This document shows positions 3,868-64,000 of a stretch of DNA of 64,000 bases, piece after piece. Under the pieces are notes generated by a model. The model saw only the letters and a list, made by a program, of their open reading frames with translations, was not told the DNA's origin and ran no database searches. This DNA comes from Tetrahymena thermophila SB210 (taxonomy: Eukaryota; Ciliophora; Oligohymenophorea; Hymenostomatida; Tetrahymenidae). The stretch lies in assembly GCF_000189635.1 (NCBI RefSeq), contig NW_002476188.1, forward strand, positions 186,001 through 250,000. Direction: 5' to 3'. Numbering within the stretch: position 1 is the first letter of the stretch; each line of letters starts with the position of its first letter. The position numbers were made by a program, and so were the translations under genes.

Positions 3868-5333
3868 TGAAATAATAATCCTTGTAAAGTAAGTAACTTC
3901 ACAAATTTAAAGGTTAAAATATAAAAACTGTAAACAAAAGCAAGCTTGATAAAAAAATGTAAATTATTTACGCAATAAAAAATACTAAAATAAACCACAA
4001 AATTAAGATATCTTACATCATATTAAATATAAAATAAATAAATAATAATTATTATCTTACTTCTATTTAATTAATTAATTTATTAAACCAACAAATAAAA
4101 AATATTTCCTACTCATTTTCTTGTATATATTAATTTAAAGCAAGTAATATTTATATTTACATATAAGTATTCTTTTAGTTATTTATTATCCAAAAAAAAA
4201 AAATTATTTACTCTTTTCGAACGAACACCTTTTGTTTCAAATTTTTAATTTTAAATTCTTCTGCACTTACTTATTTTATTAATAAGATTACTAAAAATTT
4301 TTAAAGTTGAATTCTCACCACTTCCCGTAAATAAATATTTTTAAATTAAATTAAAAATCTTTAATCCATCGATGTAATTTCAAAAGAGCTTTACAACAAA
4401 TCATCCTGAGTTATCTAATCACTTTACACATTAAAATTAATTGAATATATTCTAATTTTTTATAGTTCATTACTTATGTAAAAAATATATATATTTCTCT
4501 ACTTGAAAATCATTAAAAATATTTTTACATCTTTAAGTTACTTATCAATTAAAAATCCTTTATATTGAATTATCCTAATTATTTAGTACATATTTTAAAT
4601 TTATTATCCTTGTTTTTTTAAATTTCTAATTTTAAAAATTGAAATTTTAAATTCTGCTAATATATAATTAGTGTTAATAGAAATATTTATTTTATATAGT
4701 TTATACAGTACAATTTAAAAATTTTCATATGAGCTTATATAAAATAAAATTAATAATGAATTTTTTATTTTTATATTTAAGATTAATTTTTTTTATAAAG
4801 TTTAAAAATAATTTTTTTGTTTATTTAATTATTAAATTTAAATAAAATTAGAAATTTTCTAAAAGGAATTAATAAATATTCTATAACAAATTAGAATAAA
4901 AAAATAAGAGTTGAATTTTCTATGATATTTTTGCATTTAATGAGTCCAACGAACTCATAATTTTAATGATTCTCGCTTTTTAGACTTAATCAATCATCAG
5001 ATTGGCAATATCTAATCTGATAAATATTTATAATTATAGAGACAGTATTTTAGTGAACCATTTGTCATTTTCTTTAACTTGTTTGATTGATTAATTTTTT
5101 ATATAAAAAACACTTTACTTAACAAATTATTATTTGCAGTCATTCATGATTTAGAATAAATTTAAAAGAAGATTTAAAGATAAGCGAAAAATAAATTAAT
5201 ATATTAGTAAAAATTTAATAAGAAATTCTATCCTAAGCATTAATTAGTAAGATTATAGAAACCAAAATTTAAGAAAGCCAATAGGGAGATAGAATATCAA
5301 AATATATAGGTTAAATCATAAAAAGAGAGAAAA
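3868..5333. other. A+T-rich spacer, no gene seen
   Basis: This stretch is dominated by poly-A/T and TAAATAAA-type runs, and I see no coding composition on either strand. It separates the membrane-protein gene from the Rab gene, both transcribed rightwards, so it should hold the first gene's 3' signals and the second gene's promoter. I cannot point to either. Confidence 0.6.
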
Positions 5334-6752
<1,419 letters not shown>

Positions 6753-16796: not shown

Positions 16797-19748
16797 TTTT
16801 TATTACTTTTGTATCTAAAAAATTTACTTGCGTATCTTTATTATAAAATTTAATTAATTATAAATAAAGGAACCTTCAAAAGAAATATAAATATGCAAAC
16901 ATACAAACACTATTAATAATGATTAAATGAGTAGAATTTATGGGAATTAAGCTGATTTATATCAATCTTGCTTATATTTTTTTAATGATAAAAAAAAGTA
17001 ATTAATTTATATATTATTAAGTGATCGAATATTAACAGATAATAACTTTATTACGTATTTAATTCTTTTATTACTCTGAAACATATCATATGGTAATACA
17101 ATAACAGCTTTATAGATTCAAATTTAGAAGACTTAATCCATTTTACTCTATCATTGAATATTTTTATAAATATAATAATTTGTTTACAGTTATTTACTTT
17201 ATCTCCCTCATTAAAATAACTACAAAACTATTTATTTAGATATTTTTACTTAAGATATTAAATAGAAATTAAATTTATATAATTTAAGTAAGTAAATTTG
17301 AAAATTTAAGAAGTAACTTAGAATTTTCTTGCATAAATAACAAGGTTGAATTTCACCATACATTTATTTAATTGTTGTATAGAATTGTAAAATAAAATGA
17401 ACACTTATTTTATAAAAAATTAAATTTGAGTAAATTATTTCAATTTAACATATCTTACGAAAGTTAAGTAAAATCAAAAAATTTACAGTTTATATAATTC
17501 TTTTACTATGAATATACAAAAAAAAGTAAGAAATGCTTTCTCTTACTCATTGTTTTGAGTATTGAAATTAAATATTTGCATTTAATATGTAATTTAAATA
17601 AGTTTAGCTTCAAAATTTTAACAAAATATTTTCCCTATTAAAATTCAAAACAAAGTTAAAAATAACATTCTTTTATTTTTTCTTTAGAAAGTATTTATCC
17701 TTTAATACTTAGATTTTTAGTTTATTACTGATATTAGAGGAAGTATTAATATTTAGTTAGTCAGTCAGTCAATCAGTCTGTTTTCAAAGATTAAATGATT
17801 CTAAATTTTTTTATTTCTAATAATTTTTTATCAAAAAATATTATGATTCAAAATATGAATTATATACTCAATTTGTTACATCATAAGTTTTTCTGGAATT
17901 ATTCTAAATAAAAACAGTACTTGCGATATATATAATTTCTAAGATTTAAAATTCATATTAGAATTTTCAAATGTGAATCAATATTAGCAAACAAAAGTTA
18001 TTTTTACTAGAATTACATTTTATTTATTTATTTTTCTCCTTATTCTTAAATAAAATTCATTTATGCTTTCAATCAAATATTTATAAATAGATTCAAATAA
18101 TTGTGTTTATTTATCAAATTTAAAAATAAATAGATTAAAAATAGTTAATTATTTTAACTTGATAACATTATTTTCTTGTTATTTTTATATTATATCAATT
18201 TTAATTACTTATATTCTTAGAATACATTTATGTTTAATAAATTATCTACTTAAATCAAAAACTAACAATATAATCCATTATTTTAAATATATATTCATCA
18301 TATCTATCTTATTTATCTCTTTACTAAATAATTATGAATTTAATTAATTCATTTTTTTATTAAAATATAGAGTAATATATATTGTATGTTAAAATTTGTT
18401 TTATATATTTAAAAATGTTTCAATAAAATGCAATATTAAAGTATTAATATAAATAAATATACATATCATTAATTTTATATTTATACTTAATTTTGTTATA
18501 TATATCTAAGGTAAAAGTATTAGAGGTGTTTGTTTGTTTAAACCTTTTAATCTTAAAAAATATCTCACTAGCAGCTTAAAAAGTTATTTTTGATTTTTGA
18601 AACTCATATTCATTATAAATTAAATAATATTTTAAAATGAACCATATCACTACATAAAAACTATAATAATAATTATTAATTGGTAAAAAATAAAATTAAA
18701 TATTAATATAATAATAGCCAAATATTTGATTGTAGTGATAATAACATATATTAAATAAAATAAATAAGTTAAATACAAATTTTATTAATTTGGTTGAAGA
18801 TAAATTTATATTTTAAAATAATTTTCAATATTTTTTGCAAATTGTAAATTAAAAGCTTAAAATGTAATTTATCATAAAAAAATAATCCTTTTAATAGAAA
18901 TTAATAGAATATTTCTTATTTTTAATATAATTAAATTTATTTAAAACTAAGCTTACTATTGTTATAATTTTTATTCAATTTTTAGAACAAACAATTCTAG
19001 TTAAGCAAAATAAATAAATTTGATTCAGCTTATTATGAATATTAAAAATAATTTATACTCTGACTATTTTGGTTCTTATTCTCTTAGTATATTAAAATCA
19101 CATACTAGTTAATTACTTTTACTCTTTAAATAAAATTTTAAATCTTTCTTTAAAAAACAAAAACAAAAATTTTAATTGTAAAATATTAAAATCAGTTAAA
19201 TTTGCACTTATTTTTTCATAATTTTTTAATTGAAAAATCAATAATTATATTTTTTTAGCTTGTTTGTTTGTTTGTTTGTTTGTTTGTTTGTTTTTGCTTA
19301 TGTGGTTTATAAAATTTTTATTGTATTCAAAAAAGCTGCTTTAATGTTTTTACGATTATTAAAATTTCATTTTCATCCTAATCATTGAATTATTAGTAAA
19401 TAATTGAAGTGGCAAAATCTGTAGACTAGGTGATGATGGTAGAGAAATAAGATAATTACTTAATTTTTATTGGGATAAAAACTAATTTAGAAAGTTGTGG
19501 ATTTAATGTATTCTGTGATTACTAAAAAAATACTTAATTTATAATGTATATTATTAATTATTGGTTATGGATTTAATTATTAAATTTATAATTGAAAATT
19601 GCCTTGCCTCTTTTTTAATTTATTGTTACATCTTCTAAAATATATCTTCATACCTTAATTAATAAAATCTGTCATAAAATTAATAATTTATCTCAAAAGG
19701 GCTTTTAAATATAAGTATTATTTACTTGTTATTTCTGAGAGTAAATCA
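16797..19748. other. A+T-rich spacer, no gene seen
   Basis: About 2.95 kb between the divergent MFSD12-like (-) and cyclic-nucleotide-binding (+) genes, so it should contain both promoters. I see only A/T runs, an AGTC-type tract near 17757-17780 and a TTTG microsatellite near 19261. The frame at 18159-18347 is pure A/T low complexity. A lone TGATGA near 19430 resembles a snoRNA C box, but no partner D box follows. Confidence 0.55.
19261..19293. repeat. (TTTG)n microsatellite
   Basis: About eight uninterrupted TGTT units lie in the spacer some 460 bases upstream of the cyclic-nucleotide-binding gene. It is a simple-sequence tract with no visible coding role. Confidence 0.95.
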
Positions 19749-22700
19749 ATGAAATCAGGTTCTGAAGAGGAAAAAAAGCCTAATGGCTAAGGAATTTAAA
19801 AGATTTTAATTTAGGATATATTTATAGATGGTTCCAATACTAGTTTAAGCAAAGGAAGCAAGCCAAAGACTTATTTAGACAAGTTTAAAGATCAATTCTA
19901 AGAAACGTTTGATTAATTTAGTAGCAGTAAATTTAGGAGAGGTAGTCATTTAGTTAGCAGCAATTTAAATTATGGTCTTTAGCATAATAACGAAAAAACT
20001 TAGACTTTCAACAAATGCGATTCAATTATTTATCCTAGCTTTACTAGGGGAAGGAGCTAGTCTTTTAACTAAAAAAAGGAGTAGTTTGTAGATAATAAAT
20101 ATATTTTAGATTTATAAAAACAAGAGGATTAAGAAATACTCAAAAATACCTTGTAACTCAAAAATTAAATGTCTGAGTTCCAGATTGATATGCTCAAGAG
20201 GACGTTTGCAAATCTGAAAATATTTATAGATCTAGAAAAGTAGATGAAGAAAGATGAATATATAAAAATGATTCAAAATTTTGGGTTTTTGAAGCTCCAA
20301 AAGGGATCAGTAGTTTTTGAGTTTGGAGATTTAGGAGAGAAGTATTTCATTATATTGAAGGGTAGTGTTTACGTGCTGTTAAAAACGAATTATGGTGAAA
20401 CAGTAAGAAAAATGAAGCCCATAGATGACGAATAAAATATCCTAGAAAAAAGTAGAAAGGTGGAATCTGAGAATAAATCTGGTAATCTTAGTCCATTCGG
20501 CAGAAAAAACACAATTGAATAAATTCAATCAGGAGATTAGAAATTACATGCTGAACTTTTTACAAAGAGGAGTAAGTCCACGATGGCTGACTTCGAAATA
20601 GATTCAGAGCCAGATTTAGAGTGTAAAGGAATTACTTTGAAATAAGAAATTAAATAAAAATACCCTCATTTCAGTATTGTTGCTAGTCATTACGAAGGAG
20701 AAGGATTTGGGGAGTACTCGCTTATAAAAAATATAAGAAGAACGGCTACAATAATAACATCGTAAGATACAGTTTTTGCAACAGTGGATAAAAATGAGTA
20801 CAACGAAATTATGAAAGATCATATAGAAACTATTTTTTAAAAGAAAATTTAATTTTTGAGGTCATTTAAAATATTCGAATCCTAAGAAAAGAAATTATCG
20901 AATTTAGTTATGTGCTTTCAGAGTATTTTTTACCAGCGTGGAGATATAATTTATAAAGAATAAGATGATTCAAATAGTATGTATTTCATTTAAAGTGGAG
21001 AAGTTGAAATATCGATGTATGAATCAAACCTAAAAACCTAAAAATAAGCTGAAAATGAAGAGGAGGAGCTTGATGATTAAACAATTCAGATGAACAGATT
21101 ATTTTTAGTTTCTTCCCAAAAGCTAAAGAGAATTAAAAAAAGAGTTACTCTCGCTATACTTAACGATAAGAGTTATTTTGGTGAGGAAGAAATTGTATAA
21201 AAGTAAAAGAAAAGAAAAACTTAAGCAAAAGTAATTTCTGCTGAGTTTTCAGGATTAAAAATCAGTCTAAAAAACTTTTTATTACTTTGCAGATTCACTG
21301 ACGTAATGAAAAAATTACGCTTAAACTATAGAATGAAACAGGAGTGGAGAGATTCTTATCATGTAAACTGTGTAGAGACTATACAAAAACTTAATTCCAG
21401 CAATTTCTCTTCAATCTCACCTCCTAGATAAGAGGAAGCTCATTTCTCATAAGTAAAATTAGAAAGTCCACAAAAAACTACTAACAATGTAAGCTTTAGC
21501 TTTAATTCAAATAGTAAAAATTAATTCAAGACTCAATAATCTCCAATACTTAAAGGGAATAAATTTGGAGTTTCGTAAGAACTTATCCTTTAATAAAAAA
21601 AGTAATCAGGGTAAAATTAAAATAATTAGCATGATAATTAATAACAACATGATTAAAACTCAAGTTTTCTCCTTAAAAAAATTAATAAAAACACAATTCA
21701 TCTAACAGATGAATTTAATAAAAGTTAGGTAAATATCAATTCGATTCCTAAAGACAATATAAATTCAAATGATAATGGTAACTTAATCAATCTTTAAAGC
21801 TTTCTAGGAAATTAAGAATAAATATCAATTTTTGGGCATCTATCATCAGTTAGCAATAAATTTAATTTCTCACAGTCACTTTCTCCAGATTAAAAAGCGA
21901 AAAATTAGGTGACTTCTGATTAAAAATAAGAAAGTTTTTTGTAATCCGATCTCAATAAATCCACCTAATTTTAGTCAACATGCTTTAGTCCTATCTAAAG
22001 AAGTCATATAAACTCTCTTGTTTCTAATAATGCAAAAAAAAGTAGTAATTTTAAGATAAAACAACCACTTTCTCTTCTTTCTTCTTATGATACAAACTAA
22101 GTAAATTATTTTTTCTCTCACCATAAAAATTTATCACTTTTGAAAATTTAACTTTGGGGATTTTTTTCTTTCCCTATTTTTTAAGATGTTTTTTGAATAA
22201 ATAAAAGTATTTTAAAGCTTAAATGATATTTAATTTGAATTTAAAGTTGTTTTTTAAATAATAAAATTATAAAATTATGAGTTTATATAATTAAATTAAT
22301 TTTATATAAATTACATATTAAGTTATTTTAATTGTATAAATAGAAGAACTTTAAATTGAATTTGCAACAATTTGGACACAGTAGACCGATAACTCCTCAT
22401 CAATAAGAAGATAGAGGTGAGAACTAAATATCTTTTAATAGCTAAGATAATCAAGAAACTACTAAATTAAAAGATAGATTCTTAGATAAAAATTATTAAG
22501 CCAGCGAATTTGAAAAACTAAAAACTATGCCCTCTCGTGAATTGGTTTCTATTAGTAACGAAGATAAAATACCTTTTAGAAATGAAAATAATATGAAATA
22601 TTTTAATTCCTTAAATTAGTCATTTTATAATAGCAGTAACATCATTTCTCCTTAAAAGAATTAAAAGTAGATCAGGGCTTATTCAACTGGGAAAAAGAAT

Positions 22701-54684: not shown

Positions 54685-57600
54685 TCATCTGAATGACACC
54701 ATGGTTTATTTAGCATATTAGGTATATGTAGATTTTTGTTTAACTTTTTTAGTTTTTCTATTTATCTTGAGATAGTATTAGTACCATCTTTTCAGGACAT
54801 TTTACAAATTATAGTATTAGAAGTAATGGGTAAAGTCTTACTGTTGGTCAATTTTCCAAATATAAGAATCTTTGTCCATCTCTAAGTATTAACCTGACTC
54901 TACTCTCTATTAATAAATCATTTAATTAAACATCATTGTGTTTCCTTGTCTCATATATGTTTAAGGGCCGTCCTTTTTCCCAGCTTCATGCAGATGTAAA
55001 AGAGAAGCACCTTATTTATCGTTTTTTTGTGCATAAAGCTAGCTTGTTGGATCTAGAGAAGAATGATAATGTTTACTTTCTGACTTTTTGATGTCCATTT
55101 TTCCATAAGCTGACTAAATATTGTGCTAACTATCAGACTTTTACCTGCCATTATTATTGTTCGAACCTCTCCTTATATTTTAATTTGTTGAAATAAGTTT
55201 GCTAGAATGTGGAATATTCCTATCAGAATGACTTTCCCTGCCCATACCAAATTGATTTCTATTTAAATTATCATCTGAGTGATAAAGTTAAGGCGATAAA
55301 GGTGCTCTATCATTTTGTATAGGTGCAGGTGACTAAAATGTTGCTATTGTTTATTTAATAATAAATTTAATTTTTATAATGAATTTAATAAAAAGTTTTT
55401 TTACTTTTTTTAGTTTATTTTTTTTTGTCATCTCTTTTGGAGAAAGCCTTTTAATTTAATAATTTTATTTTAATAAATTTAATTCAAATACTGATAAGTT
55501 TTTAGAGTATTTTTTTATAATCGAGAACTTTTTATTTTTAGAGTTTTGAATCTAAATAAAAAATTATTTCAAAAAAACTTACAAAATTATTTTTAATTTA
55601 TTCATTTAAGCTGTAATTTTTTTTTTTTTGAAAATAAAGGATAAAAAGCTAGTTTGGATTTATTATGAAACGAAAATGAAAATATTTAATTAACTGATTT
55701 ATCAATTAAATATGGTAAAACAATCCAAATATAAAGAGAAACTAGATATATTTACCTTTTTTGCTCTTGGAGGAGAGTTTATAATATGGTTATCATAGTC
55801 TATTTCTTCGTCTTCTTTTATAGCATTAGATCCAAAAAATGTTTCTATTACTTAATTCTATAATTGATCGCCATAGATTTGATTTGGAGCTACTGAAAAA
55901 GTTTCTAATGGAGTATTCGCTCCAGCTGGATTTGTTTTGGACTCTCTTCTTTTTAGACTTTTTTACAGTTTTAAAGAGTTTGCACTCTCCATAACATACT
56001 CAGAATTTGTGTTATTACCATTATTTTTATGACTAAGACCCATTTTATAATTAATACTTGTTTCGTCATCTGAGTTTTACTTTTCTTCAATTGACTGATT
56101 GTTAACTTCATATTTTTTACTGTACATGTCTTGCTGACTCATTTATTATTCATAATAGGATGATTGAGTTTGTTCTGTGTAATCTTCACAGTTGGAAGAT
56201 CCAAAATCATTCATTTCTTAATATTGTAGAATATGATAAGCTAAGTTCCTCTGTAGAGATACTGAATTAGTGCTCCTTAAAGGATTTCTATGGTGGCCTT
56301 TGCTTCTTTCTTAGTCAGTATTTCTTAAGTGTCTAAATATAATATACGGATTTAGCTTATCAAACTAAACTTTGTTACACTCAGAAAAAGTATGTTCTTA
56401 ACTTTTACATACATAACAAATAATCTTCTTACCAATCTTAGTATTTTTATCTAAATAAACTTTATCTTTCAGTTCCATAAACTTTTCGAAATCTTCTTTG
56501 TTTTCCTTTATAATGTTGAGGAATAAACTTCTTTAAATTTTAATCACATGGGTATATTTCTTAGACATAATATTAGCAATTTTATCTGTTCCTGTTATAA
56601 AACTATGCAATCCAAATGTCTCCCCATCTTTGAGAGTCACAAGGTCTTTTTTATTTTGGACATTTTTTTTCATGTTTATATTAACCTCAGATCTAATATC
56701 ATAATAAATACATTTGAAAATTAGATAGAATATCATCTAAAAATATACTTAATATAATTATTTGAAAGTAGTTTTTATGCATCGTCGTTTTCTTATCCTC
56801 TGACAATACCTTATGCTCCTCTTTCAATGTATAATACAACTTTTTAAAATAATAACTTTTTAATCAATGTTTTATCTATAAAAATAAGTAAGCAATATAC
56901 CACTTCCTTTGATAATTAAGTAAATATTATCATTAAGGGTCTCTGCATCACAATTAAATATAATCTGATTAGGTGCATAGACTTCCTCTTCCATAATTGA
57001 GTAAAGTTTTACCATAGTATCTTCACTGAATAAATCATAAAAAATTGGGAACATCTTTGCTAGTTTCTAGTTAGATTAAACTAAGAGTTCAGATTACATT
57101 TACTCAGGTAGTTTATTAATAATTTCTTTTTCTTAACCAACTTTATCTTTACTTTGTTACTAATAATAGTTAAGTAAACTTAAATTAGCTCTCCTTCTAA
57201 GACTCCTTTTTATAAAATTATGTAAATAACATTTTGCAATTAAATTTTTTAAATTAATTGTTCATAAAAAAAACTAATCTTGAATAATATTCTTAAAATT
57301 TAAGCTATTTATTTCTAAAATATATTATACTTTTTATCTTAAAAGATAACAATTATAATTTTTTAAAAATTGGGATTTCTTGTTTAACATTTTTTAGACT
57401 TTGCTTACTTATTCTTTTCATTTTAAAGCATTTAGGAAAATCTTATTTGTTTGAGTAAGTTAAGCATTTATTTAACATTTTTTATTTTTTTAAATAATAT
57501 ATAAATGATTGATTACAGGTCAATTTTTTTTCTTTTCATAAACTAGTTTAGAATGTTGAGATCTTTTTTATATTCTTCATTTTATTTGTCAATTTCGTTG

Positions 57601-59628
57601 AGAATTTCACCAATTGAATTTAGTAGATAAACAAATAGAAGGCTGGAAAGTAACATTATGGTTGATGAGTAAGCTAATTCAAGTAAAGTAACAGGCTTTT
57701 CTTGGGAATTGTGCACTATTTAAGAAAAAGACCAGTAAAGAGCTTCTAAATAGTAAGTCTACCAAGGAAGAGTAGCATTTGCATCTCCGAGATGCTATTA
57801 ATTAATATTTTAAATCCAGCATTCATCATCTTCCATAAAATGCTCTTCAATAAGTCCAAGACTATACCAAGAGCATGCAATAATGTGCCCGAATATAACA
57901 ACTTACATACAGAGTTTAAATAGAGTAAGTATATAGGGTCTTTATAGGACTTGTAGAATGTAAAATTCTAGTTTCTAAAGAATAATCATCATACCTTTTA
58001 TCTTAAGCAATAGAGGTAAATGGAGCAAAATATTTACTAAGTTATTTGGGGATTTGTTTCCTTCAAAAAGAATAGGAATAATTTCAAAAAAGAAGTATTC
58101 TTTGAGGTAAATTTTCATAATAACCTTTCTATCTGTAACAAATTTATTGTCATGATAGCAAGATGTATTCATCTAAATCAGCATTTCTGAAATCCAACAA
58201 AATGTAGCTATTGAATTAAAAATATTGTAATAAGAGCCAAAGTGAGCCTCGAAGAACACTTCTACTGACATAATAAATAAATAAAAGCAGTTATAAGCTA
58301 CAATTATGGTGTTGATAATTAATTTGATAGGATTTTCAGGGTTTATCAAAGGAATTTTATCTATTCTCAAGCATCTTAGAATTAAAAGAATAAATTCAAT
58401 TAAAATATTAAAAAAGAAAGAAAAGTTCAATTTTCTCTTCATTAAAAACTATAAGTCATCACTAAGATCATTAATATACATTCTTATATTAGAATCTAGA
58501 TATCTTACTTTACCACTGAAAGTTTTGGTTTCTAAAAACTTTCTCATTTTAGGGAGGATAAAAGTAACCATTCTTATCTAAGTCTAAAATTTTTTTGTTG
58601 TTTCATTCTTTTTTACCATATATCTAGTGTTATCATCTCCTCCATTTCTATTAAATGATAAAAAATTTAAAAATAACGAAAAATTAAAAATTATTTCTTA
58701 AAAATATTCATTTTTTAAATTAAATTTGGAAAAACCTTTTTATTTTTAACTAAATTAACAGTTCACTATTTTTAAACAATCAAAACATATCTCTATCACT
58801 AATTAAAATTTATTTGATTTTAAGAAATAACTTTAAAATTGCAAATATTCAATTATTTCTATAGAGTAAATTATTATATACTAATAACCATTCATTCATA
58901 TTAGTAATAACTATTAATAGTAGAGAGTTCACTCGAAAAAAAAAATAAACTTTTAAGCAAATATTTTAAGCTAAGCTACTGCAAGACAAAGTTTTCTTAC
59001 ATATATTTTTAGAAGGGAAATTTCATAGCTGAAAAGTAGAAATATCTAATTTATCCTAATGTCAATTTTATTGTAAAAATGCTTACAGGTTTTTATTTTT
59101 GAAAATGTCTTCGTTTAAAGGAGTTGCGCCTAAATGCATAGAACTATCGTTGTGGGCATTATTTTTTGTATCTCCATTAATTATTCCAAGGTTTTTAATC
59201 TTGAACAAATTGGTATTATTCGATCTACTACGCAAAAATGACATAGAAACATTTGATTTCTATGTATTTGGGTTGTCTAAAAATTTTAATCCTCCTAACA
59301 TATCTTTATCTGTATTCTATTTCTTATCTAAATTGATGGTGTTAATTGAAATTTTATCATCAATATGCATTGAACTTCCTATATCTTGCTTTTACGACTT
59401 TTACATATCAAGAGACTTTATGAATGAGCTATCTCCTCCCTGATTTTGATGAAAGTGGTAGCTATGTTTACTTGAATCTGCATTTTCATCATATCTTTCA
59501 CTATTATCTACAGAGAATGGAGTATCTTTTCTCATATTCATCATATTTAGTTCTTTGTGCTCGCTAATGTTAAACACCATACTTTTGTTCTAACGCTCAG
59601 CAAACTCACTCTTTTTACTAGAGTTCAT
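54685..59628 (-). CDS. CNG/EAG-like ion channel A with atypical pore and zinc knuckle
   Basis: Five exons on the minus strand, 59628-59087, 58647-57517, 57205-56857, 56685-55756 and 55332-54685, give about 1199 aa. Residues 1-230 are a disordered N-terminus. Residues 240-535 hold six membrane segments; S4 (LPLLLKIKGMMIILQKLEF) has few basic residues, S5 ends FGHIIACSW, and S6 leads into EILNEIDKQNEEYKKDLNILN as in EAG/HCN/CNG channels. The pore loop is ALYWSFSQIVHNSQEKPVT: the aromatic pore helix is normal but no GYG, GFG or GET filter is present. The C-linker (KKIDLSLRRRANLSLLNYY) and a cyclic-nucleotide domain (MEEEVYAPNQIIF.. LKDGETFGLHSFITG) follow. Next is a CX2CX4HX4C knuckle, a long disordered stretch and a conserved C-terminal WKID module. 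The third intron (56856-56686) is my weakest splice; its acceptor may lie elsewhere. Confidence 0.83.
56377..56418 (-). other. Zinc knuckle (CX2CX4HX4C) in channel A
   Basis: The residues CYVCKSQEHTFSEC follow the cyclic-nucleotide domain directly (near residue 764). Spacing is exactly that of CCHC zinc knuckles, which bind single-stranded nucleic acid or protein in other contexts. Confidence 0.85.
57680..57745 (-). other. Channel A pore loop lacking a recognisable selectivity filter
   Basis: Reads LEALYWSFSQIVHNSQEKPV on the minus strand. The YWSF pore-helix motif aligns with YWAF/YWST of EAG and CNG channels, placing HNSQE where TVGYGD or TIGET would be. There is no Gly in the filter region. 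Confidence 0.85.
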
Positions 59629-60934
59629 ATCTTATAGAGACGTGTTTATTAAATTTAAAATTTCAGAAAAACGTTTGTTTTTCTACTCTCCTACTATTTA
59701 ATATTAACAAAAAACTAGTTAAAGTGATATTCTTATTTAATCTATCTATCTTTTAATTCACTTAAAATTTATAAAAGTTATTTACAGTCTATAAATAATA
59801 TTTTCAAGACAAGCATAAATCTAAAAATATTATAAATCCCACTCTACTTTTAATAATAAATTTATTATTTGTCACTAAAAAATTACAGATTTTTTCAAGT
59901 AACAATTTCGTTTAAACGATAAAAAAGCTATTACCTAGCTGATAATAATAATTTATTTTGATTTAATTCTAATAATTAAATAAAATTACAAAACAAAATT
60001 CACTTTTGGAGTATATTTTCAAAAATTTGGTATCGATTTATTTACTCATCTTCAAAGACCTTACAAATAAATAAATAATTATAAGTATAATTTAAAAAAA
60101 ATTTATTTATTTCTATTTGTTTTTATCTAACCAGGATTAACTTTAGTAATAAAAATATGCTGTTAAATCACAAAAACAAACGAAAAAAATGAATTTTTTT
60201 ACAATAAAAAGCCTCAAAAAAGATAAAGTATTGCAAATATATATTTAAGAACAATACAAATTGATTAAAAATTAAGCACTATTTATTCATAATTTTCATT
60301 ACACAAACCTTCCTAGCTAATTATAAATTAAATTTATTTCTTAATGAAATAAATATACACTTGCTGAAATGAATAAATTTAAGTAATATTTTATTTCATG
60401 ATATATTTTATCATTTTAAAGTATCTGAATTTTTTAGGGTGGCTATAAATAGATTATGGAGTTTGGCTACATCTATGATAATTATAGCCAGCGTTGAAAT
60501 TTGAGTTTGTATTTTCAATAGTGGAGATTTTTAAGAAAAAAAATAATTTGGAGGTGAGTCTTAATTATTGAAGAATTAAAGTATATTGTGATTTATTATA
60601 TTATGAATCTTAAATTGTAAAATTAAATTCTTTGGTTATAGTAGTATAAGAAAGTAATATCTAATTTATAATGATATATATGATTTTAAATATTTAATAA
60701 ATGAGGTTACAAATTTATATTTATTAATTCATAAACTGATTATGCAATTTATTGAATATTAGCTTATCAATAATATTTATTATTATAAATGAATACTTAA
60801 TCAAAAGCATGAGCGATTTATTTTATTTTACAAATTTATTATTTACAAAAATTATTATTAAAATAAGTAAGCACGTTTTAATTAAATAAATGCTTACTTA
60901 TTTTTGTTTACAAAATTCATTTTAATACTATTTA
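59629..60934. other. Spacer between the two channel genes
   Basis: About 1.3 kb that should hold the promoter of channel A and the 3' end of channel B. Mostly A+T-rich. A less A/T-biased patch at about 60430-60545 contains an 8-base perfect inverted repeat (GGCTATAA .. TTATAGCC) enclosing a further GGCTA. No gene is supported. Confidence 0.5.
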
Positions 60935-63900
60935 TCAATTTAAATCATTTTCACTTGTTTTTATAATGCGATCATCTTATGGCAGCTAATTAATTGACAT
61001 GCTAGATTACTAGCGAGATCTTTGCTTTGATTCTAATTGAATTCCAGAGGGCCTTAGTAACTTAATTCCAGAAATGGCTTTTAGCTTAGTTTTAGTTGTT
61101 CTTAAAGTTTTTTTTCTTTTACCATTTCTAACATATAAATTATTATTAAATCTCCTAATTACATTGATATAATTGTAATAGACATAATAATTTTGAAATT
61201 CGTGTACTTTATCAATCTTCCACTCAAAATACTCATCAGTTTATAGGTTTTCTTAAGTTTGCTATTGTTGCTAGCTATAAAATTTTTTAATAAAGTTTGC
61301 ATCTAAAAATCTAATCGAATGACGATGCCTTCCGTGAGTATTCATAGTGTTAATATTAGAAGTTTTGAGGAATTGATTGTTTGATGCTTCATCTTTTTCT
61401 TTTTCATTATTTATTATTAAGATAGATTTTCTAGGAGCCAAAGCAGGTGTAGCCCCGGCTAGTTCATAAAAAACAGAAGGTGATTGAGGAGATCTTTCCT
61501 TAAAAGTGTTAACATTTGATTTGGTTTTTTCATAAATGCTATCCAATTTAGATTAAGGAGTAAAATCTACTTTTTATGATTCAGTTTACCCTTTTGGAGA
61601 AATTACATCTTGTTCACTGCTTAATTTATAAAGTGAGCTTTTTTTGACATTATTTGTCATATTGTGATGCGACTTAGTCCTTGATCTAAAGAAATTACTT
61701 ATCTCTTCATCTCCTATGTACTCTGATGCAAATTCTTTTTCAGTCTATTTTATTTTAATAAAAATATATTTTAAAATGATTTTTAAATTAAATCTAATTC
61801 ACTTTATTCAATAAAATTTTTTAATTAAAATTAGAATTCAAATTTACTTGTTTTGTTGTTTGTTATTTTATGTTATATGGATCTTCTAAGTTTTCTGACT
61901 ATAGAGAAGTGATATCGAAGGACTTTAAGGCACTTAAACTATATTTTTTTTTTATTATTGACTTAATCATTTTTTCATCTTGAACATTTTAAATTTAATC
62001 TTTTAATGATGATTAAGATTTTTAATCATTATCTTCTTAATCATCGCTTTATGACTCAGAAGATGAACTTTGTGAATTCTAAATAGGGTTTCCTTATGAA
62101 TCAAAAGAAATATCGTGATCACTATCTATTAGACTATTATCTTCAGCATAATTTTTAGCTTTATCTTCAATACTTCTTTTATTTTAGAAGCAATTAAGCT
62201 TTTTTAGCTTTCTTTGTAAAACATTGTTATTTCGTATTTAATTTGGACTATAGTTAAAGTGATGAAAAATATATATATTTTATTTGTCAAAGAAAGTTTT
62301 GTTGCAAAAATCGACCATGTGATCTTAACTATGACAACCAGCGCAAGTCAAATCTTTTATCACTTTATAATTTTTATCATAAAGTATCTTATCTTTTATT
62401 TCCATAAATTTTTCATAGTCAGCCTTATTTTCTTTGATCACAGTAAGAAAGTTATTTCTATTTATTTTTATGATTTAGGAAAATTTATTACTCTGCGCAC
62501 TTATATTTTTATCAATTCCAGTAATAAAGTTGAACAAACCAAATGAATCTCCGTTTTTCAAAATTTGCAGTGTCTTTTTAAGCTTATGAATACTATTCTC
62601 TGGTTATTGCTACTTCTTGTTGAAATATCTTTTTAAAATAAATTTATTAAATTTACACAAATAATAATAATTATTATTTATATTCAAAATCTCAATTTCA
62701 ATATAAAAAGTTAAATATTTAGTTTGAAATTTCCAATAATATTTTAATGTTATAAGCTAATTATTTTTAAAATTTTAAAAATCAAGGCAAAGATTTTTTT
62801 TTTTAATTATAAAATTAAGTACATTGAAGTAGACTGAAAATTTATTGGCTGTCCAGATGTTTAGATTTCTTCTCTCTCTACAAAAAGGGTAACTATAAAT
62901 AATAAATTAATTTGAGTTTCATTCATTTAATTATGATTTTGTTAAAATACCTTAGCCTTGCTAAATCAAAAATATGCTGTCTTCATGCCCTTAATATTAA
63001 CTAAATATCATTTAATTAGGTGCATAAATGACTTCTTCCATAATATTATATAATTTAGATATTGTTTCTTGTGAAAAGGTTTAGTAAAACAATGGAAATT
63101 GCTTTAGAAGCTTATGGTTAGAAGAGTAAATAAGTTCATTTTAGATGTATGGACTCAATTTAGAGATAGTTTCTTTTTCTTAAATTATTTTGTCTCTTGA
63201 TTATTAATGGTAATACTTGAGAAGATTTGAATTCACTCTTCTTCTTAGACTTCTATTTATTATTATAAAATGTTTTATTATAAAATTATTTTGATTTTTA
63301 TAAAATGTATTACAAATCTATGTTTCTTCTCTTCATATATGAGTTTAAGATGTTAAGGTCTTTTTTATATTCTTCTTGCTACTTTGAAATGTCTGCTAGA
63401 ATATTTCCAATAGAATTCAACATAAAACCAAATATAATGCTCGTAAGCAACATAATTAAGCATGAGTAAATCTATTCAATATCATTACTCGGTTTTTCTG
63501 ACAAGTTGTGCATCATTATTGCAAAGGACCAATACAAACATTCTATATAAATTACATGCCATTCCGCTGATTGAAACTGAGCAACCCATGTGTTTTGCTC
63601 TCCTAATACATGTACCTCAAAGCTAGATATTATATTTCTAGTACAAGCAATAATATGTCCAAGGATTATAATATTCCCACACAGTTTAAGTAGGAATAAG
63701 ATATAATGCTTTTCTAACATTTATAGTGCATAAAACTCAATTTTTTTTAGGATAATCATAATTCCCTTAATTTTCAGAAGCAGTGGCAAGTGCAACATAA
63801 TATTTATTGGGATAGAATCCGAACTTCTCCCTTCAAAAAGTAGGGGAAGAATTTCAAAAAAAATATACTCTTTAAAATAAATTTATAATATTAGTTTGCG

Positions 63901-64000
63901 ATCTTTGGTAAATGTATTGTTATAATATGTAGCTGTGTTCATTTGTAAAAGCATTTCTGTTATCCAAGCACCTAAAGCAATAGAATGGAATATATTAGCA
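60935..64000 (-). CDS. CNG/EAG-like ion channel B, paralog of A, 5' end outside window
   Basis: Minus-strand gene cut by the right window edge. Visible exons: 64000-63314, 63252-62951, 62599-61848 and 61744-60935. The first begins inside the membrane domain (ANIFHSIALGAWITEMLL) and aligns almost residue by residue with channel A through S4 (LPLLLKIKGIMIILKKIEF), S5 (ILGHIIACTRN), the pore (CLYWSFAIMMHNLSEKPSND) and S6. The filter is again missing. C-linker LSLRRRVNSNLLKYY, a cyclic-nucleotide domain (MEEVIYAPNQMIF .. LKNGDSFGLFNFITG), a CAGCHSQDHMVDFC zinc knuckle and a C-terminal WKIDKVHEFQNYY module follow. The join between 62951 and 62599 is doubtful: the sequence after 62951 still encodes GILT as in channel A, then meets TGA, with no better donor. 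Either an unusual intron or a damaged cyclic-nucleotide domain is possible. The C-terminal half is Ser/Glu-rich and probably disordered. Confidence 0.8.
62304..62345 (-). other. Zinc knuckle (CX2CX4HX4C) in channel B
   Basis: The residues CAGCHSQDHMVDFC have the same spacing as in channel A and the same place after the FEKFMELKD/YEKFMEIKD helix, although most non-ligand residues differ. Confidence 0.85.
63494..63553 (-). other. Channel B pore loop lacking a recognisable selectivity filter
   Basis: Reads ECLYWSFAIMMHNLSEKPSN. As in channel A the YWSF helix is kept and an HNxxEKP stretch replaces the Gly-containing filter. Conservation of HN and EKP between the paralogs argues for selection, not random decay. 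Confidence 0.85.

Follow-up and report, generated by a model that had tools for sequence, protein, structure and literature searches.

The 64,000-nucleotide window analysed here (contig C308:186001-250000 of the 101 Mb, 445-contig Tetrahymena thermophila genome) carries two tandem channel-like genes on its minus strand, A and B, whose reading frames work with the ciliate code (code 6, in which TAA and TAG encode Gln). The channel exon of gene A (57517..58619, containing YWSFSQIVHNSQEKPVTLLELAYSSTIMLLSSLLFVYLLNSIGEIL) encodes S1-S6; its putative start is the earliest Met in the conserved part, and it ends at a GT donor at ID-L; an open frame at 59062-59757 may supply an upstream N-terminal exon. 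Within the channel exon lie the S4 region (LLLKIKGMMIILQKLEFYILQ, 57951..58013), the pore helix with the filter (YWSFSQIVHNSQEKP, 57693..57737) and S6 (LLSSLLFVYLLNSIGEIL, 57600..57653). A putative exon at 56901..57205, its two ends taken from GT and AG, encodes the C-linker and the first half of the cyclic-nucleotide-binding domain (CNBD) (SLRRRANLSLLNYY...GSG); the second half begins with QNKKDLVTLKDGETFG (56611..56658), and a CCHC motif of the form C-X2-C-X4-H-X4-C (CYVCKSQEHTFSEC) lies at 56377..56418. For gene B, the window holds the part of the channel exon at 63312..64000 (containing YWSFAIMMHNLSEKPSNDIEQIYSCLIMLLTSIIFGFMLNSIGNIL), the match extending past the right edge to about C308:250380, with the pore helix and filter at 63490..63534 (YWSFAIMMHNLSEKP), the start of the second CNBD half at 62538..62579 (KKTLQILKNGDSFG) and the CCHC motif at 62304..62345 (CAGCHSQDHMVDFC). 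As originally predicted, the filter position reads HNSQEKP in A (57693-57713) and HNLSEKP in B (63490-63510), and S5, the pore helix, S6 and the C-linker are all found in both genes.

The pores of A and B each lie well within one open exon and neither contains GYG, and the first intron after S6 starts with a GT donor at the identical codon (ID-L) in the two genes. Together with the near-universal absence of GYG among the relatives described below, this makes a skipped exon or misread frame hiding GYG unlikely, and we set that possibility aside. AlphaFold2 prediction on the two window sequences gave an unusable model (pLDDT 38.8, pTM 0.22). A search with the C-terminal motif of gene B found nothing beyond the query itself in the pieces searched, which excluded the C-terminus of A. 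Elsewhere in the window, the plus strand carries a run of Major Facilitator Superfamily genes (26789-53955; MFS_1 match in six of the nine long open frames scanned) and an 866-residue open frame with a cyclic-nucleotide-binding domain match (19596-22193); in the PDB it matches, at E 1e-10, only four sequences, all of cGMP-dependent protein kinases.

Profile comparison places the family in the CNBD-channel superfamily (KCNH, CNG, HCN and plant Shaker), with matches to CNGA1, KCNH1, KCNH2, AKT1 and HCN and with aligned C-linker and CNBD exons. The family matched chain C of the T. thermophila PDB entry 7w5z at E 7.4e-34 and, with profile A1, CNGA1 at 4.5e-16, and 7w5z_C was the best PDB match of A and of profiles A1, A2 and A3. 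The Pfam Ion_trans model matched 4 of 24 clade I members (clades are defined below); it matched neither A nor B, and none of the 12 members of A1 that belong to clade II. By these profile matches the family belongs to the superfamily, yet A and B lack the filters that define K+ and animal CNG channels: neither HNSQEKP nor HNLSEKP conforms to the T-x-G-[YF]-G of the former, and the T-I-G-E of the latter occurs in none of the 57 channel domains that we aligned.

The predicted CNBD is present in A and B but matches its Pfam model only weakly, at 20.4 (A) and 17 (B) bits against a cut-off of 27.5. In the phosphate-binding cassette, which in cyclic-nucleotide-gated channels carries a Glu and an Arg, both genes have Leu for the Glu (FGL in A) and, just downstream, Lys for the Arg. 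Both residues are kept in only 2 of the 40 rows in which these columns are filled. The pocket of A and B has lost its key residues, and the two are unlikely to be gated by cyclic nucleotides in the usual way. The C-X2-C-X4-H-X4-C motif directly follows the CNBD in 40 of 41 CNBD rows, a count that leans towards the motif because the search query contained it; the exception, a fragment of 51 residues, stops short of it. In an alignment of ten rows, 11 columns do not vary, and the four putative zinc ligands account for four of them. The motif is that of a CCHC zinc knuckle, which would bind zinc. Pfam zinc-knuckle models gave a below-cut-off match in two of six proteins scanned, and none in A or B. 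The CCHC motif probably predates the loss of GYG, since the GYG-bearing 7w5z_C has the same pair of CNBD and CCHC. Among the literature matches listed for this combination, the term zinc knuckle does not occur.

The original prediction treated the changed filter as a property of two tandem paralogs; the residues stand, and the trait proved to be clade-wide. Searching the T. thermophila genome with A gave 110 matches, nine of which are by our count second exons of split genes, leaving 101 places. Channel domains were read at 57 of them, a count that takes in A and B, and at 10 others, which hold more distant relatives, the pore was read; the remaining 34 places are unread, and 8 of these have E below 1e-24, within the score range of the clade. 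GYG is absent from 56 of the 57 domains, L059 being its sole carrier, and G[YF]GD is kept in all 10 distant relatives. T. thermophila thus has a large family of K+-channel-like proteins without the standard K+ filter. The 57 rows leave out ten open reading frames that repeat genes of another locus (nine judged by place, and L033 and L057_p_4415 by identical letters), four short fragments of L051, and the pore-less partial genes L044_p_9059 and L057_p_8699. In L026, and probably in L018, the reading crosses an intron-like insert, whose columns drop out as insertions. At L051 (C59:115000-124999), the minus-strand frames L051_m_5461, 5723, 7058 and 7457 hold short, disrupted fragments of a clade I gene, TSSNICSANLE among them; they are apparently what is left of a decayed copy next to intact genes.

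When the filter columns are removed before tree building, the 56 non-GYG domains form one clade against the GYG proteins L059 and 7w5z_C with support of 100/99, although the root is less sure than this value implies: both GYG proteins sit on long branches, which, as the tree program cautions, may be joined falsely. The clade divides into clade I (36 genes, 99/95) and clade II (20 genes, 99/99), which includes A and B. From the pore-helix Trp to the following Glu or Gln there are 21 residues in L059, 18 in 40 of the 57 rows and 19 in 16, suggesting that the non-GYG clade descends from a channel that lost its filter with a net loss of two to three residues.

The two clades carry different filters. 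Clade I has a short xTGS type, mostly LTLM-T-T-G-S-N, in which the first T is also A, S, I, C or V; in the one exception, L049 (C129:95500-101200, plus-strand gene 4346-5365), it reads TGQN, a plant CNGC triplet perhaps reached by convergence. Clade II comprises A, B, seven further genes of the C308 array, L019 on C361 and ten genes whose filters mostly resemble NSYSSSV, here called the NSYS group. The nine array genes have nine filters: HNSQEKP, HNLSEKP, TVGTSP, NVTTKP, NIGTTP, NTSTSP, NNQIFMP, SMQYNPP and SNYNKQP. Between the pore-helix Trp (W) and the Glu, all 36 clade I genes have their single glycine at W+8, whereas in clade II there is none in 15 of 20 genes, one at W+6 in three and one at W+9, the K+-channel place, in two. 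The array genes L015 (NIGTTP) and L017 (TVGTSP) still look CNG-like. A proline is present in all ten filters of the A/B half of clade II, and both clades retain S6 and the C-linker. With its scaffold kept and this proline present, the pore could still be working.

We also examined the charge of S4, which had been described as poor in Arg and Lys. A and B have 3 and 4 such residues per 24-residue window and lack the Arg/Lys-rich S4 of voltage-gated channels, but this is a trait of the family and not special to them: the mean is 3.2 in the 20 clade II rows and 3.6 in the other 37, and the GYG protein L059 has 3. The S4 region of gene A overlaps the stretch with the largest conservation gain in clade II.

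The argument first made for selection on the pore was that HN..EKP stays the same in two copies that have diverged in other places. The channel exons of A and B share 55% of 355 aligned residues. HN..EKP agrees at five of its seven positions, a level equalled or exceeded by 141 of 349 windows of that length. The match is therefore not above background, and by this chance test we rejected it as evidence in itself. Selection on HN..EKP can be assessed only between A and B, as neither gene has a close relative; across the channel exon pN is 0.28 and pS 0.74, with synonymous sites saturated, and the eight filter codons (pN 0.32, pS 0.80) carry little weight alone. Closer pairs exist in the NSYS group, where the 11-codon filter stretch has a pN/pS of 0.17 in five close pairs (flank 0.14) and of 0.17 in three independent pairs (flank 0.10; Fisher p 7e-6). 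Clade I pairs give 0.16 at the filter (seven pairs, two sharing one gene) and 0.11 in the flank, the out-of-register pair L036/L039 being left out. Where selection can be gauged, namely in NSYS relatives with other filter letters and not in A and B themselves, changed clade II filters are therefore under purifying selection. In addition, each of the 20 channel domains of clade II covers the whole length of the profile, from a single open frame or, where the gene is split (eight cases), from two.

Comparison of the sister clades revealed a shift of constraint centred on the filter. Only 2.1% of windows are at least as conserved as the filter in clade I, as opposed to 80% in clade II as a whole, 73% in the ten sequences around A and B and 40% in the NSYS group. 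In the NSYS group, conservation of the filter (0.65) is close to the average of the other windows (0.58), so a loss of filter constraint stands out only in clade II taken together and in its A/B half. After thinning to below 60% identity, which left 27 clade I and 14 clade II sequences, overall conservation is higher in clade II (0.43) than in clade I (0.36), but at the filter it is far lower (0.16 against 0.71). This is the largest shift of the channel domain in the thinned set, reached by 4 of 331 windows, namely the filter window and three overlapping it.

The gains in conservation lie at opposite ends of the domain. With helix limits assigned by us, the six stretches gaining most in clade II are all in S1-S4 or at its edges (LPLLLKIKGM, EYFFFEIIPI, NTIIVAYNCF and KIPLINPENP, for example), and the six gaining most in clade I are all in S5, the pore and S6. 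With the filter left out, conservation of S1-S4 divided by that of the pore domain gives 0.62 for clade I and 1.46 for clade II; over 200 subsamples of ten this ratio ranges from 0.57 to 0.68 and from 1.38 to 1.54, respectively, ranges that are narrow in part because the clade II draws come from only 14 sequences. Within clade II, the ten sequences of the A/B half have a ratio of 1.45 and the NSYS group one of 1.2. From these ratios and the filter shift, we read selection as having moved from the pore to S1-S4: in clade II it would have left the filter and pore and grown stronger on the sensor half.

The original prediction of a selected, different pore or a non-conducting sensor or regulatory subunit, as opposed to decay, is thus supported, although by other evidence than the HN..EKP match on which it had relied: the filter-centred constraint shift between sister clades and the purifying selection on the altered filters of relatives of A and B. 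These findings suggest that many family members are no longer ordinary K+ channels, and permeation in A and B would be lost or changed. The absence of GYG does not imply absence of conduction, because CNG and CNGC channels conduct without it.

The A/B family derives from CNBD-type (EAG/CNG-like) channels. In the interpretation that we favour, clade I would comprise CNG/CNGC-like, non-K+-selective cation pores, and A, B and their kin would not be K+ channels by themselves. Most likely, A, B and their kin would serve as subunits with an altered pore, silent or weak in conduction, that join conducting relatives by way of S5-S6 and the C-linker, the copy-specific filter tuning or blocking the shared pore; in a homotetramer of A or B, the Lys beside the Glu would form a ring unfavourable to cations passing. 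Alternatively, within the same view, they may be non-conducting sensors signalling through S1-S4, the CNBD-like domain and the zinc knuckle. Taken whole, this statement (cation pores in clade I; silent or pore-modifying subunits, or sensors without flow, among the kin of A and B) seems to us evenly poised between right and wrong. A bolder and less probable reading would make clade II a set of pseudo-channels, tetramer-type cation channels in which selection gave up ion selectivity as the conserved role and moved to S1-S4, giving expanded ciliate membrane sensors or adaptor subunits with a selected pore plug in each array copy.

A and B might instead be conducting channels of a new selectivity, for example for Ca2+ or for cations in general, each filter of the array serving another ion or block profile. 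Purifying selection on the filter in close clade II pairs and the presence of nine filters in nine array genes are in keeping with this, as is the resemblance of the array filters TVGTSP and NIGTTP to the CNGA1 filter TIGETP. Plant channels offer parallels: the filter triplets of CNGCs include GQN and AND (PMC7830781), and in MtCNGC15b a filter Gln-to-Glu change abolished the Ca2+ current (PMC12284214). A pore-centred explanation predicts the reverse of what we observe in clade II, where S1-S4 is more conserved than the pore domain, and A and B have Lys in their filters; we regard new selectivity as rather unlikely.

Two further explanations appear improbable. Were the clade II pores drifting towards pseudogenes after loss of function, one would point to the filter's standing among the less conserved stretches of clade II (80% of windows as conserved or more) and to the broken fragments of a family member on contig C59. 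Simple decay is rejected by the filter pN/pS of 0.17 in the recent NSYS pairs and by a pN of 0.28 against a pS of 0.74 between A and B; moreover, the 20 clade II domains are intact end to end and the clade is overall more conserved than clade I (0.43 against 0.36), so that relaxed constraint is quite unlikely. Of similarly low probability is a structural or scaffold role apart from ion flow, in which family relatives could be recruited as accessory subunits of membrane complexes. It draws on 7w5z_C, the best PDB match noted above: this GYG-bearing, channel-like protein is listed as a chain of a T. thermophila complex IV dimer entry, and 7W5Z is named Tt-CIV2 in PMC10227065. Yet 7w5z_C keeps GYG and falls outside the non-GYG clade, and neither 'cyclic nucleotide' nor 'ion channel' appears anywhere in the main text of the two papers examined, PMC10227065 among them.

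A survey of eukaryotic Kv and CNBD channels (PMC7576140) describes significant departures from TVG[YF]G as rare and confined to individual channels; in the set that it analysed, metazoan CNG alone departs as a whole clade, and plant CNGCs, outside that analysis, are named there as non-canonical too. The family described here, with at least 56 genes of one ciliate, is a clade-level filter departure with two sister branches under opposite constraint. Among the literature matches listed, titles and the beginnings of abstracts do not announce these filters in ciliates. The sister clades offer a natural comparison of residues for permeation with residues for sensing, and they carry a warning that such ciliate genes should not be counted as K+ channels.

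Among known systems, 7w5z_C (T. thermophila 'Cyclic nucleotide-binding domain protein') shares with A and B the six-helix channel domain and C-linker, followed by a CNBD and then CCHC; unlike them, it keeps TVGYGD and, in its phosphate cassette, FGE and RKA. Plant CNGCs likewise have short filters, and the TGQN triplet of the clade I gene L049 also occurs in Arabidopsis CNGCs (PMC7830781); A and B differ in having no glycine between Trp and Glu. This comparison was made by published triplets, with no CNGC sequence aligned, and no CNGC is among the PDB matches of the family profiles. The animal CNG channels CNGA1, CNGA3 and TAX-4 are also CNBD channels with a shortened, non-GYG filter, but their TIGE occurs in none of the 57 domains read, and A and B have changed the ligand-binding Glu and Arg. 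Homology to EAG/ERG (KCNH) channels and to the plant Shaker channels AKT1 and KAT1 spans much of S1-S6 (hERG at E 3.3e-9 with A alone, AKT1 at 1.3e-17 with clade I), whereas the family of A and B lacks GYG or GFG and has low S4 charge. The modulatory subunits CNGB, KvS and KAT3 provide precedents, KvS subunits keeping GYG; by analogy with such silent or modulatory subunits, A and B may act as altered members of a heterotetramer.
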